IMG/VR virus record: IMGVR_UViG_3300022221_000030
Coordinates: 1 to 20,495 of that record
DNA length: 20,495 bases
Direction: 5' to 3' (one strand)
Source: a virus
The position numbers were made by a program, and so were the translations under genes. Positions 1,183-14,934 of this stretch are shown piece after piece. Position 1 is the stretch's first letter, and each line of letters starts with the position of its first letter. Under the pieces are notes generated by a model. That model searched no databases. It worked only from the letters and a program-made list of their open reading frames with translations, and had not been told where the DNA came from.

Positions 1183-1341
1183 CTATTCTTTTGCCGCCTC
1201 GAACCCTTCCCACACCATTGCCCATTGCACTTCCTCAGAGCTAGGCGCCTGCGCTTCCAAGGATTCCAATTGTTGTTCGGCATCATCCGCCAAGGGTAGA
1301 TTGCCCAACAACGCTAAGGCTTGCTCTAGTTGTTCGCTCAT
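1183..1341 (-). CDS. Very small acidic protein, translationally coupled to gpF
   Basis: A 52-residue reading frame (MSEQLEQALALLGNLPLADD... ending GFEAAKE). It is strongly acidic and predicted helical, with no recognised motif. Its ATG overlaps the TAA stop of the gpF gene as TAATG, the same junction style used elsewhere in this genome, and it ends 13 bases before the next start at 1169. The codon choice and amphipathic Leu/Glu pattern look like a real protein, and without it the 171 bases between gpF and the 79-residue gene would be empty. Function unknown. Confidence 0.6.
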   Translation of the reverse strand: MSEQLEQALALLGNLPLADDAEQQLESLEAQAPSSEEVQWAMVWEGFEAAKE

Positions 1342-2801
1342 TACATCCCCCGTGATTTCGTCGTGGACTTGGTGGCCTTGCCCACCAAATCATCAAAATA
1401 TTTGACCATATCGGGCCGCCATTGCTCCATGGCTTTACGATGCAACAACCATGGCACAAAATGCTCCGCGTGCCATTCCAAGTGATTGGTGCCACCATAG
1501 GTGGTGATTGAATCCGTTATCGGCGGCTTTACTCCCTCACTATAGTAATGCAGTTGGTGGCCTAATTCATGCGCCCATGTGAACACTTTGCCCCGGTCAC
1601 TTTCTTTATCCCCAAAAGTAAAATTGCGTTGCCCCTGTTTGTGTTGTTTGAAATCGTTTTCGATATCATCCAACACATCAGCCACCGCTACATTTTTAAA
1701 ATTGCTATTGGACTGCACCTTCACCATGACCAAGTCACGGTTCACACGGGTAAAACCTAAGGTTCTGCCAGGGTGGCGGGTGGTGAAGCTCGCTAGTGTA
1801 GCCAGATGATCGGATTCACCGATGAATTGCGCCACTTGTTCAGTGATGCGGTAAGCGGCTTTTGTCTTAAAATTCATTTCAGTGGCTTTGATAAATAATG
1901 CTTTAACAGGATGTGCTTTTAAAAACGGTTTCAACTTATTCACGCTGGTTTGATCGGGTAAGGCTTCCAAGACTTTTTCCAGGCCGTGACGGTCAACGCC
2001 CTTGGCGGTAGAAAACACCGGGTTTTCATCTTCGGGCCATAGTGAATTAGGCGGCTTGGATGCGGGCTGCTTTAATCGCTTTTTAAGTGCCTTTTTCTTT
2101 TGGCTTAAATGTTCATTTAATTGGCTTAGGCGTGTCTTTCCGGGTGAATAGGCAAAGCCTGGATCAATGCCATTGGGGATGTCGTGCACTTCCCCCGTGC
2201 GTGGGTCAATCCATTCATAGGTGCCATCATCAGGGCCGTGGTCGGATATGGTAAACCCGCGGGCTTTGGCTTCGTCTTCACTGATTGCGAATTTCTTGCA
2301 GGTACAACCCCACCCATTCATGGGCGTGTGGGTGTTCCACCACGAATCATCGTGAGGCAGCACGGTGCCATCCCATGCCAAGTGATGGGGCCGCGGGTTT
2401 TCACTGTCACCATGCTTATATAAGGCAAAGGGCCGCGACTTCCTCAAGACGGGGTCTGCAAACTGGGCTTCACGTCCAGCGTTGTACGCTTGGCGGATGT
2501 TGGTTTGGTAGATTATGCGGGTGCGCCAATCGCGCCCACCGTTGTAACCCCACCCATGGCGTTCCACGATATTGTCAAAATCATCACGGAATTCGGCCAA
2601 GGTGGTGCCTTCACTTAGGGCTTTATCAATGGCCTCGGCAAAGTCGCCCAAGATATCGGCGTGCATTGCGCCCGCAACCATGAATCCGGCGTCATGTTGT
2701 TCTTGCCATAAATCATTCCATGCATCGGTGGGGATGGGTACTTTTTGACGAAAAAAGCGGATCGCTTGATCAAACGGCAATTGGGTGGTTGTGATGGCCA
2801 T
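1341..2801 (-). CDS. Head morphogenesis protein gpF fused to a metallopeptidase-like domain
   Basis: A 486-residue minor head protein of the Mu gpF / SPP1 gp7 family. Residues about 1-210 carry the family features: GWGYNGGRDWRTRIIYQTN (83-101), NIRQAYNAGRE (101-111), HHLAWDGTVLPHDDSWW (139-155) and the Cys pair in NGWGCTCKKF (162-171). A charged linker (about 220-260, SQKKKALKKRLKQ) follows. The C-terminal part (about 265-470) contains HELGHQLH at 411-418 (HExxH zinc motif: H411, E412, H415), and about 30 residues later EWHAEHFVPWLL, where E446 (or E442) could be a third metal ligand. This looks like a gluzincin-type zinc peptidase. gpF helps organise DNA packaging and ejection at the portal vertex. 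The fused domain might cleave a head protein or act on the host wall or on an injected target; its substrate is unknown. It lies downstream of the portal gene after a 125-bp gap. Confidence 0.92.
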   Translation of the reverse strand: MAITTTQLPFDQAIRFFRQKVPIPTDAWNDLWQEQHDAGFMVAGAMHADILGDFAEAIDKALSEGTTLAEFRDDFDNIVERHGWGYNGGRDWRTRIIYQTNIRQAYNAGREAQFADPVLRKSRPFALYKHGDSENPRPHHLAWDGTVLPHDDSWWNTHTPMNGWGCTCKKFAISEDEAKARGFTISDHGPDDGTYEWIDPRTGEVHDIPNGIDPGFAYSPGKTRLSQLNEHLSQKKKALKKRLKQPASKPPNSLWPEDENPVFSTAKGVDRHGLEKVLEALPDQTSVNKLKPFLKAHPVKALFIKATEMNFKTKAAYRITEQVAQFIGESDHLATLASFTTRHPGRTLGFTRVNRDLVMVKVQSNSNFKNVAVADVLDDIENDFKQHKQGQRNFTFGDKESDRGKVFTWAHELGHQLHYYSEGVKPPITDSITTYGGTNHLEWHAEHFVPWLLHRKAMEQWRPDMVKYFDDLVGKATKSTTKSRGM

Positions 2802-7733: not shown

Positions 7734-9320
7734 TCATACTTTAAGTGAATAAAAAAATTGGGTGCTTGATTCGGTTTTCATGTGCACGGTGACTGAACGC
7801 GTGATGGGTTGGTCAATCAAACCCAAGCCAACACCGGTGACCAGTGCGAAACTATCCACGGCCACATTGCTGGCGATATCGGCAACACTTAGTTGATGAA
7901 CTTGCGCGATGCTGGGTTGCTCGATGGCCACAGGGCTGCCCGTGTTGGCAACGCTAAGTTGCTGCACTTGTGTGATGGCTGGACTATCCACACCCACGGT
8001 GCTAGCGATATTGGCCACAGCCAAGGTGTGTTCTGCGGTTTGAGTGACGGCCAAAACATCCACGCCGCCATTGCTAGCGATATCGGCAACACTCAATTGT
8101 TGCACTTGCGTGATGGTCGGGCTTTCATTCCCCACAGTGCTGGCGATATCGGCAACACTTAGTTGTTGCACTTGTGTGATGGTTAGGCTTTCATTGCCCA
8201 CGGTGCTAGCGATATCGGCAACACTTAGTTGTTGCACTTGCGTGATGGCTAGGCTTTCATTGCCCACGTTGCTGCCAACATTTGCAACGGTGAGATTGTG
8301 AACACCACCGGCGGCCACGTATTCATCCGCGCCCACATCCCACGCGCTCGTGGGCCGGGTGTCGTCTTCAATATCGACGCTAAATGAATAGACCGAATCG
8401 GCGGACAAGTCGGTGCCCGCACCGATGGCCGCGGTGTCGGTGCTGTCCAATCTGAAATCATCGGCGGCTTTGTTTGCAAAGGTTAGTGCGGTGCTGGTGA
8501 TCGCCGATACACCGGGCGCGGTGGCATCACTTGACAAGTTGGTGGCGCTGTTAACAGTGTCAAAGCCTGTGTCGTAGTAATCTGCAACGCAATCTTGCAC
8601 AATGTTATTTTTTGCCAAGGCGGATGTGCCGATGGTTGATCGCGCCCATATTCCGCGTTGACAATTCACAACGGTGTTGTTGTAAATCGCATAAATATTA
8701 CCAAGCGCATCACTTTGCCGCACATAAATGCCGCGCCCCGTAAATGTGAATGTGCCGTGCTGATAGTCATATATGATATTGTTCGCAATGATCACGTTGC
8801 CATCGGGAAGTGAACCGGAAGACGTGTATTCACTCACGCCATAAAGCCGGTCGGCGTTGGCTGCATACGCGGACACATCCAAGCGCATGATGTTGTCAGT
8901 GATGATATGGCCGCCGGTGTTGGTAATTTCCACGCCCGCTTGATCATTGGCGCCCGTGGTACCAGACATCAATTGCATGTTTTTCACAGTGACAAAACTA
9001 TCAAGCAAACTAATACAACGCCCGTTTACTTTCATGTGGGCCTTGGTTTCATCCCACACCGCACCGGTGTTGTCACCTTCAATGGTGACGCGATTGGTGG
9101 CGCTTAACGTCCAACCACTGAACGTGGCGGCGGTGGTATCGGCGGTGCTGTTTCCTGCGCCGTTTAATTTTAATGTGTCATTGGGTGTAACCAAGTTGCG
9201 TTGCTCGTTGAGTTCCGCACTTGCTAAACTCGCATACGCGGCATTAGCGCCCGTCAACGCTGCTGTGGTGCCATCACCACCCACACTGTTTGGGTTCCAA
9301 TAGGCATTGAAATCCGTCAC
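7734..9320 (-). CDS. Right-handed beta-helix protein with 22-residue tandem repeats, probable virion appendage
   Basis: A 528-residue protein starting with GTG at 9320, overlapping the previous stop as TAGTG. Residues about 60-335 have the short repeating strands of a right-handed parallel beta helix: WTLSATNRVTIEGDNTG, SFVTVKNMQLMSG, HIITDNIMRLDVS, NVIIANNIIYDY, IYAIYNNTVVNCQRGIW. They end with DDTRPTSAWDVGADEY (319-334), a closing motif common in such proteins. Residues 343 to about 493 form seven tandem units of about 22 residues based on LSVADIASTVGNESLTITQV. The C-terminus is short and beta-rich. Likely a spike, fibre or other surface appendage, perhaps binding or digesting host polysaccharide; no catalytic residues can be assigned by eye. 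Alternatively it is a head decoration. It is the largest gene of the five-gene insertion between the VpaChn25_0724-type gene and the small terminase. Confidence 0.85.
   Translation of the reverse strand: MTDFNAYWNPNSVGGDGTTAALTGANAAYASLASAELNEQRNLVTPNDTLKLNGAGNSTADTTAATFSGWTLSATNRVTIEGDNTGAVWDETKAHMKVNGRCISLLDSFVTVKNMQLMSGTTGANDQAGVEITNTGGHIITDNIMRLDVSAYAANADRLYGVSEYTSSGSLPDGNVIIANNIIYDYQHGTFTFTGRGIYVRQSDALGNIYAIYNNTVVNCQRGIWARSTIGTSALAKNNIVQDCVADYYDTGFDTVNSATNLSSDATAPGVSAITSTALTFANKAADDFRLDSTDTAAIGAGTDLSADSVYSFSVDIEDDTRPTSAWDVGADEYVAAGGVHNLTVANVGSNVGNESLAITQVQQLSVADIASTVGNESLTITQVQQLSVADIASTVGNESPTITQVQQLSVADIASNGGVDVLAVTQTAEHTLAVANIASTVGVDSPAITQVQQLSVANTGSPVAIEQPSIAQVHQLSVADIASNVAVDSFALVTGVGLGLIDQPITRSVTVHMKTESSTQFFYSLKV
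7839..8294 (-). repeat. Tandem 66-bp coding repeats (22-residue protein units)
   Basis: About seven tandem units of 66 bp (one expanded by two codons) lie inside the beta-helix gene. On the plus strand the core gcgatatcggcaacact recurs at about 8086, 8151 and 8211, and related sequence recurs through the block. Units 2-4 are nearly identical at the DNA level, which points to recent duplication by slippage or recombination. Outer units have diverged in the variable positions (GNES, GVDV, GVDS, AIEQ, AVDS). Translation stays in frame throughout. Confidence 0.9.
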
Positions 9321-10601: not shown

Positions 10602-11000
10602 TTAAAACAATGCAACTTGTTTGGATTCGTCACCGTCTTCATGCGCTTGGTGTTCAATGATGGCCCACACCCAACGTTCCGTGATGCCATGACGGATGGC
10701 AAGTTCACGCGGCTTGATGCCGTTGGCGTAATCGCGTTGTATTTGATGGTTGCGGGCTTTTGCAATCGCCAATTTGCAATTGGGCACGGACAAATAGGTG
10801 CCACCATAAATTGCACACAACACCCGTGCGGCATCTTCACCGATGACACGCAAAAGCTCGTTGGCGTTTTCAAATCGCACCGGCACCCACAATGACATGA
10901 TGCCACCAAAGCGTTGCACCAATTTGATAGTGGCGGGTAAGCCAATTTCATCGGCTAGCGTTTTTATAGTTTCGGGTAAATCATCGGCGTTGATATTCAT
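10602..11000 (-). CDS. mor: Mor transcription activator family protein
   Basis: A 132-residue activator of the Mor/C family. The N-terminal part (LPETIKTLADEIGLPATIKLVQRFGG, shown in part) is the dimerisation region. The middle contains the family-typical YGGTYLSVPNCK (65-76), and the C-terminus has the helix-turn-helix GIKPRELAIRHGITERWVWAII (split here as IKPRELAIRHG and ITERWVWAII). In Mu, Mor is made early and turns on the middle promoter for C, which then turns on the late genes. Here no C gene follows, so this protein may act directly on the packaging and head operon through the palindrome just downstream. The start overlaps the previous stop as ATGA. Confidence 0.92.
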   Translation of the reverse strand: MNINADDLPETIKTLADEIGLPATIKLVQRFGGIMSLWVPVRFENANELLRVIGEDAARVLCAIYGGTYLSVPNCKLAIAKARNHQIQRDYANGIKPRELAIRHGITERWVWAIIEHQAHEDGDESKQVALF

Positions 11001-11506
11001 GTGAGTTTTTTCCGCATGTCACCCAAGCGTTGCCCTATTTGCACGGGCGCGGTAGGTTTGTTGGCGTCACCAGCTATGTGCACTTTCACCCGCTGCTTGG
11101 CTTGGGTTTCTTTTTTGCGTTCGCTTTGGCCTTCGGTTTTGTTCGCCAAACCGGCAACCACTTCCAATAAATATGCATGTGATTTTAGTGGGCGGGTGAT
11201 ACCGTCACGGCTCACCACTTGTTCAAGTGCGGCCACCCACATATCTTGGGTTACAACCCAATCACGCCCACCACGTTTGATTCTCCCCTTTGTAATGACG
11301 TCATTAAGTTCTTTTAAAACACTAGCCGCTTTGTGCCACGACAATGCATTTTTTTGTGGCCGGAATAACGCAAGATAACGGATAACTAAACCACTTAACG
11401 GCTTGGGCAAATTCAATGCGGCGGCAACGGCTTCGCGGGCGGCTTCATCTTGCAAACACGCTTCAAGCGATTGTCGTGCACCACAACATGGGCACGTGAT
11501 CAGCAT
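10997..11506 (-). CDS. Conserved Mu-like phage protein with N-terminal zinc-finger-like Cys cluster
   Basis: A 169-residue protein whose N-terminus has TCPCCGARQSLEAC, a partial zinc-ribbon-like cluster. It continues with an Ala/Leu-rich stretch, LVIRYLALFRPQKNALSW (about 42-59) and a basic C-terminal half (SERKKETQAKQRVKVHI). I recall similar proteins in transposable phages immediately before mor, with the same ITCPCC and LFRP...L.W pattern. A nucleic-acid-binding role is likely but not established. The start overlaps the previous gene's end by seven bases and the stop overlaps mor, so it is tightly coupled to both. Confidence 0.8.
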   Translation of the reverse strand: MLITCPCCGARQSLEACLQDEAAREAVAAALNLPKPLSGLVIRYLALFRPQKNALSWHKAASVLKELNDVITKGRIKRGGRDWVVTQDMWVAALEQVVSRDGITRPLKSHAYLLEVVAGLANKTEGQSERKKETQAKQRVKVHIAGDANKPTAPVQIGQRLGDMRKKLT

Positions 11507-12384
11507 GGGGCGTGTTCCACCGGCGCTTGGGTGTGGTGGGTTTCGGTTTCGGGTTCGTCCACGTCGAACCAGTCGGTGAATTCGTTGGTGTGTTGGCCTT
11601 TTATGGGTTCAGTCCTTGGCATTAAAATCACGCGCCATTGGTCGGTATCAAACACAATGGGTTCACGTTTGTTTTCTTTTTCTTGGTCATTATCTAATGG
11701 CATCTTAAAAACTCGCACCACGTTGGCCTCTAAATAATGAAAAGCAAACGCAAGTTGCACGCGATTCAACCATTCACCCAAAATTTTTCCTTGGTCGAAC
11801 CGGCTACGGCCACATGGACCACCGCATACATAGTCTGGATCGTCGGCGAGGATACACTCAACTTTGCATTGGGTGATTTGGTTTTTTCCCGCCCATTTTT
11901 TCAACCTGTCAAACTCAACCACACCCACGGTGTCGGTTTCATAGGTTAGCATTGACTCTACGCCTTCCTTTTTAACCGGACTAGTGAACGCGGTGGCGTA
12001 GGGTTGGAACATTTCATCCGAAACATTTTTCAAAGCAACCATGAACCAACCATTGGTCACAAACGTGAATTTTTGGCTTTTGATGTGTGCGGTGTATGGT
12101 TGCATGACTTCGGGCCGATGTTCCCAATAGTTAGGTAACAAGTTCAACCATGTGGTGTTTATTTTTGTTCTTGGCATTGTATATTCCTCCATTTGTTGTT
12201 TGGTAAAAATTGCCGCGGCTTGCGCTCGATTTGTTGCACCTAGTTGTTCGTAAACAATATGCAAAGTTTGCCGGATAGTGTCCGGTGATCGGTGCAAGCT
12301 TTTGGCGATTTCGGGATTGGTTAATCCATCACACACTAGTTGCATGATTTGTTTGCGTCGGGCTGTCAGTATTAGCGGCCCCAT
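11500..12384 (-). CDS. LuxR-type HTH domain in frame with an unknown, possibly sliding-clamp-like domain
   Basis: A 294-residue frame. Residues 5-65 are a clear GerE/LuxR helix-turn-helix: LTARRKQIMQLVCDGLTNPE, then IAKSLHRSPDTIRQTLHIVY and LGATNRAQAAAI. Residue 70 is a second Met (MPRTKINTTW) with a perfect Shine-Dalgarno in front of it, so a 225-residue product is also likely. The second part is not a family I know. TFVTNGWFMVAL (about 100-111) and the near C-terminal FDTDQWRVILMPR recall the TDG and VMPMR segments of bacterial sliding clamps, a weak resemblance. Three Cys in YVCGGPCG, with an earlier CKVEC, may bind metal. The start overlaps the gemA stop by 13 bases. The protein could be a bifunctional regulator or two separate products. 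Confidence 0.8.
   Translation of the reverse strand: MGPLILTARRKQIMQLVCDGLTNPEIAKSLHRSPDTIRQTLHIVYEQLGATNRAQAAAIFTKQQMEEYTMPRTKINTTWLNLLPNYWEHRPEVMQPYTAHIKSQKFTFVTNGWFMVALKNVSDEMFQPYATAFTSPVKKEGVESMLTYETDTVGVVEFDRLKKWAGKNQITQCKVECILADDPDYVCGGPCGRSRFDQGKILGEWLNRVQLAFAFHYLEANVVRVFKMPLDNDQEKENKREPIVFDTDQWRVILMPRTEPIKGQHTNEFTDWFDVDEPETETHHTQAPVEHAPC
12185..12190 (-). promoter_or_regulatory. Internal Shine-Dalgarno for a second start inside the LuxR-HTH frame
   Basis: GGAGGA at 12190-12185 is followed after seven bases by ATG at 12177-12175, in the same frame as the upstream HTH domain and with no stop between them. In the longer protein these bases encode Met-Glu-Glu-Tyr-Thr-Met. This is one of the best ribosome sites in the window, so the 225-residue C-terminal product (11500-12177) is probably made independently. 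Confidence 0.65.
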
Positions 12385-12833
12385 TCTTCAACGTCCATTC
12401 CCGATTTCTTTGCCCTCTCTGTTAATGCAGTGATTACGGCACTAAATTGTGTAGCGGCTTTAAGCCATGCCACGCGTTCAATTTTAAACATTTGTTTGGC
12501 GATGGCGTCGGCATAGCTCCACGGCAAGCGTTGTACGGTCAACAACGCTTCAATTTTTTGCAACATAGGTTCAGTGTTAATGTTGTTCGGGCGGCCTGGA
12601 AAGGTGCCCACTTTTTTTTGCGCCTTGAATCCGCACGACTTCAAGTGATCCATCACGCGTTGCAGTTCGGGCAAATTCATTTTGGTGGTGCTGGTTTTGC
12701 CGGTAATATCTTTTAATAGGTTTCGATAGCTACTTAGGTGCGCGGCATCACCGTCATCATCAGCAATGCCCAATTGCTTGGCAGCAATGTGAATTTTTTG
12801 AACTAGGCGTTTACTGTTGGTTTCAATCGGCAT
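12372..12833 (-). CDS. gemA: GemA-family regulatory protein (DUF1018)
   Basis: A 153-residue protein of the GemA family (Mu gp16, DUF1018). Signature parts are KRLVQKIHIAAKQLGIADDD (8-27), YRNLLKDITGKTSTTKMN (33-50), LPELQRVMDHLKSCGF (51-66) and the C-terminal LPWSYADAIAKQMFKIERVAW (split here as LPWSYADAIAK and QMFKIERVAW). In Mu the protein affects host gene expression and DNA supercoiling. The frame is open to 12872, but the ATG at 12833 fits the family N-terminus and overlaps the preceding stop by 11 bases, so I chose it. It is followed by the LuxR-HTH gene with a 13-base overlap. Confidence 0.9.
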   Translation of the reverse strand: MPIETNSKRLVQKIHIAAKQLGIADDDGDAAHLSSYRNLLKDITGKTSTTKMNLPELQRVMDHLKSCGFKAQKKVGTFPGRPNNINTEPMLQKIEALLTVQRLPWSYADAIAKQMFKIERVAWLKAATQFSAVITALTERAKKSGMDVEEWGR

Positions 12834-13032
12834 ATTGTTCACCACAAAAAGGACAATATGACGCAAACACATTAGGCACGGCGCCGCGCTTTTTCTTATC
12901 TAACTTAGAGACCTTAACCACTATCCGTTGGCTCAATAAATCCAGTGAACCCATGCTTACCCTGCAAGGCACCTCTAACACCAAATTACTAGGCTTTAGA
13001 TTTTCGTTCACTTTTTCAATACACTTGCACAT
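12823..13032 (-). CDS. Small zinc-ribbon-like protein
   Basis: A 69-residue protein starting MCKCIEKVNENLK. The ATG at 13032 has AAAAGGAG eight bases upstream; the GTG at 13041 overlaps that ribosome site and was rejected. Cysteines at the two ends (C2 and C4; C60 and C63 in YCPFCGEQY) could form a single split zinc site. The middle is beta-rich and basic (IVVKVSKLDKKKRG). Such small end-to-end zinc proteins occur in early regions of many phages. The partner and function are unknown. Confidence 0.72.
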   Translation of the reverse strand: MCKCIEKVNENLKPSNLVLEVPCRVSMGSLDLLSQRIVVKVSKLDKKKRGAVPNVFASYCPFCGEQYAD

Positions 13033-13848: not shown

Positions 13849-14466
13849 CTATGGCAATGAAGCTAAATCGAGCGAAAGCGGTTTGTATTGACCTTCTTGT
13901 CCATCACGTTCATATAGGCGCAAATATGTTTTTGTCACGCTCACCATAATTGAATCACTAATGGCATCCATTGCTTTCAACCAAGTGGGGTCTTGAATAT
14001 CTAAACGGCGCAATCCTAAAATGCGAACCGTTGAAACATTGCCTTGCTTGTCAACTTGAAAAGCGTCATTGACTAGCGCCACTATTTCGGGACGTGCACC
14101 GGCTGACCATTTTTGAATACATTGATCTATTAAACTTTTAGCAACTTGCAACCGTTCATCAAAGTCAATGTGATCTTGCAATGCGCGTTGAACTTTGTAG
14201 TGCCCATCGAAACTACACAACGAAACATTCCCCTTTTTACCACCAAAGGCTTTGTCATAATCTTGCGCGGACAACTCAACAAAATCTTGAACGGCTTTCA
14301 ATGTATTGGCTTTGAATGCTGCCATTTGAATTTGCAATGATTTAGCTTGTTCAACAATTTGCCGCACGGTTTCATCACGCAACAAGTCAATGGCGGCAAT
14401 GGTGTCCACTGGAACCCATCGCCCTTTTGCATCTTGGCGCATGTTAGTGGTGGCTGGCTGATTCAT
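13849..14466 (-). CDS. DUF3164 protein of transposable phages
   Basis: A 205-residue protein of the DUF3164 family, found early in Mu-like phages and some other prophages. Recognisable parts are DAKGRWVPVDTIAAIDLLRD (13-32), the helical segment to about 60, and GGKKGNVSLCSFDGHYKVQR (75-94, a conserved beta hairpin region). Then come DERLQVAKSLIDQCI and the C-terminal DAISDSIMVSVTKTYLRLYER followed by PLSLDLASLP (each shown in part). The molecular function is not known; its place in the early operon beside Gam or replication genes suggests DNA metabolism. No Gam gene is seen next to it here. The start follows AAGGGG and overlaps the preceding gene by 23 bases. Confidence 0.88.
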   Translation of the reverse strand: MNQPATTNMRQDAKGRWVPVDTIAAIDLLRDETVRQIVEQAKSLQIQMAAFKANTLKAVQDFVELSAQDYDKAFGGKKGNVSLCSFDGHYKVQRALQDHIDFDERLQVAKSLIDQCIQKWSAGARPEIVALVNDAFQVDKQGNVSTVRILGLRRLDIQDPTWLKAMDAISDSIMVSVTKTYLRLYERDGQEGQYKPLSLDLASLP

Positions 14467-14659
14467 GCTTCACCCCTTCTTGATATGCTTTTTTTGAAAA
14501 ATCAACATGCACCAAACATTCATCCCCCAAATTTTCTTCCGGGTCGATATCCTCACCCCTCGCCCATAACATCGACGAAAACAAAAAACCCAACGCAAAA
14601 CCGGCAACCACACAAAAGTAGAATCCGCCAAGCATTGCCCAATCAGTCGTGATTTCCAT
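14444..14659 (-). CDS. Small single-pass membrane protein
   Basis: A 71-residue protein starting MEITTDWAMLGGFYF. The frame reaches an ATG at 14674, but the ATG at 14659 has GGAGGA seven bases upstream and overlaps the previous stop as TAATG, so it is the better start. Residues about 8-30 (AMLGGFYFCVVAGFALGFLF) form one transmembrane helix. The rest is an acidic cytoplasmic or periplasmic tail (EDIDPEENLGDECLVHVDF). No family was recognised. In early position it may act on the host envelope or exclude other phages, which is speculation. Confidence 0.65.
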   Translation of the reverse strand: MEITTDWAMLGGFYFCVVAGFALGFLFSSMLWARGEDIDPEENLGDECLVHVDFSKKAYQEGVKHESASHH

Positions 14660-14934
14660 TAGTTCATCCTCCATTGCACTTGCACATTGCCAAACAAAAC
14701 AAAGTTAAAATTTTCACGATTGCGGCGGGATTGGTTCACGTTTTGAAACTTGGTTCCTTGTGGGTTGTAATCAATTACCATAACGGGTTTGCTTTCAATC
14801 CGCACACATACCACGGTGTGTCCCATTGCATTCAATTCAACAACCGCGTTGGCCACGTTGTGGGCGGCGGCAAGTATGTTTTGGTTTTGTTGGCTGAATT
14901 CATAATCAACTTCAACGTGTGATTCATCTACCAT
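14659..14934 (-). CDS. Small hypothetical early protein
   Basis: A 91-residue protein. The N-terminal half is helical (SQQNQNILAAAHNVANAVVE), the second half is beta-rich (HTVVCVRIESKPVMVIDYN), and the end is FNFVLFGNVQVQWRMN. It looks like a small alpha/beta fold, but I know no family for it. It begins immediately after the stop of the 106-residue HTH gene, with a ribosome site (GAAAG) inside that gene's end. Function unknown. Confidence 0.68.
   Translation of the reverse strand: MVDESHVEVDYEFSQQNQNILAAAHNVANAVVELNAMGHTVVCVRIESKPVMVIDYNPQGTKFQNVNQSRRNRENFNFVLFGNVQVQWRMN

Follow-up and report, generated by a model that had tools for sequence, protein, structure and literature searches.

A frame with a GerE-type HTH and a candidate internal start between GemA and phrog_2161 in the early operon of a Mu-like phage

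The window analysed here, that is the whole stretch of DNA under study, comprises 20,495 bases of an IMG/VR virus record. Its early genes lie on the minus strand. These encode a Ner-type repressor, a transposase, a transposition ATPase, GemA, a phrog_2161 gene and Mor, and are followed by terminase and portal. With GemA, Mor, a transposase plus transposition ATPase and a Mu-type terminase, the window belongs to a Mu-like transposable phage, and these early genes, together with the Ner-type repressor, bear out the Mu-like early operon proposed in the initial annotation. Between GemA and the phrog_2161 gene lies a frame of 294 codons, which has the following parts and neighbours:

12372 to 12872, minus strand: GemA (Mu gp16) homologue, upstream of the frame (Pfam GemA, E 2.9e-23)
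11500 to 12384, minus strand: whole frame, a GerE-type HTH plus an orphan C-terminal part (294 codons plus stop)
12178 to 12384, minus strand: HTH segment, residues 1-69 (GerE match 5-58)
12185 to 12190, minus strand: Shine-Dalgarno-like GGAGGA, 7 bases ahead of the internal ATG
12175 to 12177, minus strand: internal in-frame ATG (start at 12177), codon 70 (Met70) of the long frame
11500 to 12177, minus strand: second part, a 225-aa orphan with an acidic tail and no family match, in the coding frame by codon usage
10997 to 11506, minus strand: phrog_2161 gene, downstream of the frame (E 1e-41)
10602 to 11000, minus strand: Mor-type activator, downstream (Pfam Mor, E 2.7e-11; phrog_836, E 1.2e-31)

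The first 13 bases of the frame, where the HTH begins, are shared with the end of GemA, and its last 7, with the stop, are shared with the phrog_2161 gene; both overlaps fit operon coupling. A scan for a promoter between GemA and the frame gave a single weak match in 3.4 kb, which is below the shuffle count. Two further proteins of the minus strand are worth recording. A head-morphogenesis-type protein (window 1341-2801) aligns with three of its four best relatives over just 223-237 residues at 54-57% and with the fourth over 500 residues at 34%; it contains an HELGH motif, perhaps part of a variable metallopeptidase-like domain. A 528-aa protein ahead of the terminase region (window 7734-9320) has no PHROG match and carries tandem LSVADIAS-type repeats close to its C-terminus.

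We found the 294-codon frame (12384 to 11500) to be open from its ATG to its stop, with zero internal stops and a second in-frame ATG at 12177, as expected from the earlier description of a single uninterrupted frame with two plausible starts. Codon usage favours this one frame throughout, at +0.27 bits per codon in the HTH and +0.31 in the second part, and is negative in all other frames. The LuxR-type HTH that had been placed at residues 5-65 is a true GerE-type HTH, with a Pfam GerE (PF00196) match spanning residues 5-58 (E 1.5e-10; 41 bits versus a curated cut-off of 23.5). The junction residues 59-69 have no homology support from any relative, and a five-T run occupies codons 59-60, just past the last homology-supported residue (58). 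In most proteins a GerE-type HTH is C-terminal and follows a sensor domain. The layout of a LuxR-family quorum-sensing receptor or a NarL-type response regulator is absent here: the HTH is N-terminal and has no autoinducer-binding or receiver domain, and no further Pfam domain and no NCBIfam match were detected in the frame outside the HTH region.

The best phage relative of the HTH is a stand-alone LuxR-type protein of 128 aa from Nostoc phage N1 (35% identity over 77 residues). It is also the only similar HTH among 38,145 ORFs from 160 Mu-like loci and phage records, where two other ORFs reach just E 0.3 and 0.85. The 160 loci were fetched by terminase (best 80 of 502 and best 80 of 594) and include many that are short or have no early region, as well as likely duplicates of one phage with identical values (L051/L129, L059/L143 and L062/L146). 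None of their ORFs has a comparable LuxR HTH, which supports the claimed rarity of this domain in Mu-like early operons.

The same collection, phage records included, places the frame in its genomic context. GemA was found in 50 loci and phrog_2161 in 52, and 32 loci have both: in 13 of them GemA is closely followed by phrog_2161, in 18 phrog_2161 lies upstream of GemA, and in the remaining one (L042) the two genes are 3.2 kb apart. GemA and phrog_2161 abut or overlap in 12 of the 13 loci with the same close order, so that the 294-codon frame occupies a usually empty slot. The exception, L021, has an unrelated 82-aa ORF between the two genes, a sign that insertions occur at this site. The 294-codon frame thus looks like an accessory insertion. 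The ORF in L021 (5468-5716), from a gammaproteobacterial prophage, is cysteine-rich and has no Pfam match.

The internal start reads GGAGGA-AUAUACA-AUG, is in frame and yields 225 aa, in agreement with the GGAGGA, the seven-base spacing and the 225-residue protein named in the initial annotation. Duplex energies, meaning the pairing with the anti-Shine-Dalgarno sequence of the 16S tail, were calculated for the starts of the 30 listed ORFs and for the 144 internal in-frame ATGs of these ORFs. At -9.3 kcal/mol, the ATG at 12177 shares first place among the 144, and the first ATG of the frame (12384) is weaker, at -4.9 kcal/mol. The tied ATG at 14659, codon 6 of a listed ORF (14444-14674, minus strand), is probably the true start of its gene, with a GGAGGA, a 7-base spacer and a TAATG overlap with the previous gene. 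The fourth-best internal ATG, at 13032, forms codon 4 of its ORF, and an internal ATG at 1169 is also strong (-8.9 kcal/mol). The bare GGAG-N5-9-ATG pattern shows no enrichment across the window (5 occurrences versus 7.9 expected in shuffles), and the strength of the internal site therefore lies in where it ranks among the in-frame ATGs and not in the number of pattern hits. RNA folding placed the GGAGGA partly inside a weak hairpin, which is not significant (z -1.05). Given its energy rank and the codon-usage frame shared by both halves, the ATG at 12177 looks like a real start site.

The 225-residue second part (residues 70-294) matches no Pfam, NCBIfam or PHROGs family; its best PHROGs hit is phrog_16434 at E 0.11, and one fragment matches Pfam below the threshold (E 0.059). 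A PDB sequence search gave nothing credible. No relatives were found in phages and plasmids, where two records at E 9 in a phage search are not credible, nor in two scans of IMG/VR virus contigs and a scan of GTDB-species contigs, which require an exact 8-residue peptide, so that distant relatives would escape them. Likewise, relatives were absent from 9 genomes with related prophages and from 369 genomes of one class (two draws of nearly the same set), in searches that lacked a positive control for it. Outside the window, none of the 38,145 ORFs of the Mu-like loci and phage records codes for this protein.

On visual inspection, this orphan shows a weak likeness to the small proteins of phages that resemble sliding clamps (phrog_3007/phrog_947 type, some 170-230 aa). 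Its length is similar to theirs, and its TNGW, DDPDY and MPRT correspond to the TDGH, DGRFPDW and MPMR of the clamps. A test for the three motifs, in order and at family spacing, gave 13.4 bits with motifs that were chosen post hoc, a score reached by 4 of 956 real ORFs as well as by 4 of 1500 shuffles; one of these four real ORFs, in L171, is itself a clamp-like protein. A multiple alignment places the three motifs in register, the clamps being part of that alignment. The DNA_pol3_beta Pfam families did not match the second part even at E 10, the PHROGs search returned no clamp family, and hhalign against small phage clamps gave no match. With a profile of these clamps, hmmsearch ranked the second part 123rd of 941 reported sequences, and in a two-block alignment 66 of 500 controls equalled it.

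Structure prediction from the clamp-containing alignment, in which the clamp sequences steered the AlphaFold model, reached a mean pLDDT of 48.8, with values of 86-87 at residues 31-50 and 85-87 at residues 171-190 and low values across most of the rest, so that confidence is limited to two hairpins. In VIA-align, the matches listed for this steered model were nearly all clamps (best Z 3.7, rmsd 4.6, 89 aligned). Foldseek gave nothing at E <= 0.001, and a model made without the clamp alignment (pLDDT 35.1) had no clamp among the 50 matches listed. The profile, fold and unbiased-model tests gave no support, and a clamp identity was not assigned. It is very doubtful that we are dealing with a small protein of the sliding-clamp type that has diverged strongly, and that the phage makes both a free clamp and a clamp fused to a sequence-specific HTH. 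If it were so, the fusion would provide a way to load or park the replication clamp at chosen DNA sites during replicative transposition, or might alternatively recruit or block clamp-binding proteins there, and a clamp linked to a protein that binds DNA at specific sites would be unusual as far as our searches show.

We also rejected the idea that clamp genes are, as a rule, accompanied by an HTH gene: among 33 genes upstream of small clamps, the matches at E 0.01 are to HTH_ParB (2), HTH_23 (1), GntR (1) and CII (1), and none is to GerE. Some annotations in the clamp families themselves call for comment. The phrog_3007 label (RusA-like Holliday junction resolvase), present in several phage records, looks wrong: L240:578-1192 of Vibrio phage 1.115.A, which has related genes in Salmonella and Klebsiella phages, matches phrog_3007 and also phrog_947 (DNA polymerase processivity factor, E 1.5e-10), shows the clamp motifs and reaches E 1.8e-4, below the cut-off, against Pfam DNA_pol3_beta_2. 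In a phrog_37414-type family (L171:3509-4144, L381:1465-2163 from Microcystis phage MACPNOA1, L356 and L357), clamp-like ends flank a DnaJ-type CxxCxGxG zinc region, with T[ND]G near the start and an MPMR-like end in some members. The MACPNOA1 member is annotated as heat shock protein binding, and L171:3509-4144 is located within a Mu-like early region.

Our reading of the locus, to which we give about even chances, is that an accessory gene was inserted between GemA and the phrog_2161 gene and that its one frame uses two starts to give a free and an HTH-bearing form. Judged by its sequence, the frame likely gives two products. The strong GGAGGA at the internal start would yield the free 225-residue protein, probably as the main product, and the outer start, with its weaker site overlapping the GemA end, would yield less of the 294-residue GerE-HTH form, probably through translational coupling. 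The long form could then be a DNA-bound version of the same protein that brings it to DNA sites. The free form could act as a partner or competitor of the long one, which it could titrate or complete. We infer from this that the frame could be a regulatory device. If both products are made, the choice of start site alone would set the ratio of DNA-tethered to free form, and the repertoire of Mu-like early operons would gain a GerE-type HTH. The two-start reading draws on the frame and its start signals, on a real HTH, on the single codon-usage frame in both halves, on the same GGAGGA-N7-ATG geometry at 14659, the apparent true start of another gene, and on proven in-frame two-product precedents described for a phage and a plasmid system (PMC9430671, PMC6854812). 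Counted against it are that no homologue shows selection keeping the arrangement and that the two products are predictions from sequence, as well as the un-enriched GGAG pattern, the insignificant hairpin and an N-terminal HTH that lacks its usual sensor domain.

The same observations can be accommodated in other ways. An ordinary HTH gene and the equally ordinary 225-aa gene next to it may recently have lost their separating stop, which would make the long form a roleless by-product. We consider this unlikely, although the strong ribosome site would belong to the second gene, the HTH match stops at residue 58, small stand-alone LuxR-type proteins exist in phages (that of Nostoc phage N1) and an HTH gene of Arthrobacter phage Isolde, with a different HTH, overlaps the start of the next gene; the junction is open, however, and both halves have the codon usage of the phage. 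That two genes were fused by an error of sequencing or assembly at the five-T run is very improbable, since this run is short and the neighbour genes are intact, with overlaps like those of other Mu-like phages, yet the run directly follows residue 58, no relative backs the 11 junction codons, and the window is an IMG/VR virus record that was possibly assembled from a metagenome. It is because of these unsupported codons and the T run that a lost stop or a sequencing error stays a candidate, and either would make the finding an ordinary one.

A different view would be that only the 294-residue protein matters and that the internal GGAGGA arose by chance from Met-Glu-Glu coding. Good sites at other internal ATGs of the window, such as that at 1169, and a GGAG-N5-9-ATG frequency no higher than in shuffles are in line with this view, but chance would also have to account for a well-spaced site that is joint first of 144 by energy, beats the frame's own start and falls exactly on the domain boundary, which makes this explanation rather improbable.

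In-frame nested gene pairs such as I/Z of Mu and C/Nu3 of lambda are known from phages. The resemblance to Mu I/Z suggested by the initial annotation holds for the arrangement, and the likeness stops there. In both pairs, as in the two-start reading of our frame, one frame and one stop are shared and the inner start has its own ribosome site; their two products are proven, with a scaffold as the short form. Two-polypeptide endolysins are likewise proven in-frame nested pairs with a shared stop and a separate inner ribosome site, where the short form is an endolysin subunit and the two products occur in one case at a ratio of 1:5 (PMC9430671). In our frame, unlike in all of these, the short form would lack a DNA-binding HTH, and the two products are predicted from sequence. 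RepR/RepR' of plasmid pIGRK also combines a DNA-binding protein with an N-terminally truncated form made from an internal start, an antagonistic pair of two proven products that both bind DNA and act oppositely by experiment (PMC6854812), whereas the short form of our frame would lose its sole recognised DNA-binding domain.

The GerE-type HTH itself is common to our frame and to GerE/LuxR-type proteins including that of Nostoc phage N1, from which our protein differs in the N-terminal position of the HTH and in the orphan part that it carries. LuxR-type regulators with full sensor domains are also used by phages (PMC10432266), and our protein differs from them in having no sensor domain. Mu-like phages of P. 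aeruginosa have accessory genes in the left arm, which are phage-specific and inserted between core genes as our frame is, but are mainly 34-100 codons long, compared with 294 codons including an HTH here (PMC4378225). Among the open-licence papers listed in searches for a phage HTH pair of this kind and for phage clamps, none describes the present combination, to judge by title and the start of the abstract. In-frame nested phage genes are already known; their combination with a GerE-type HTH is, by this survey, new.
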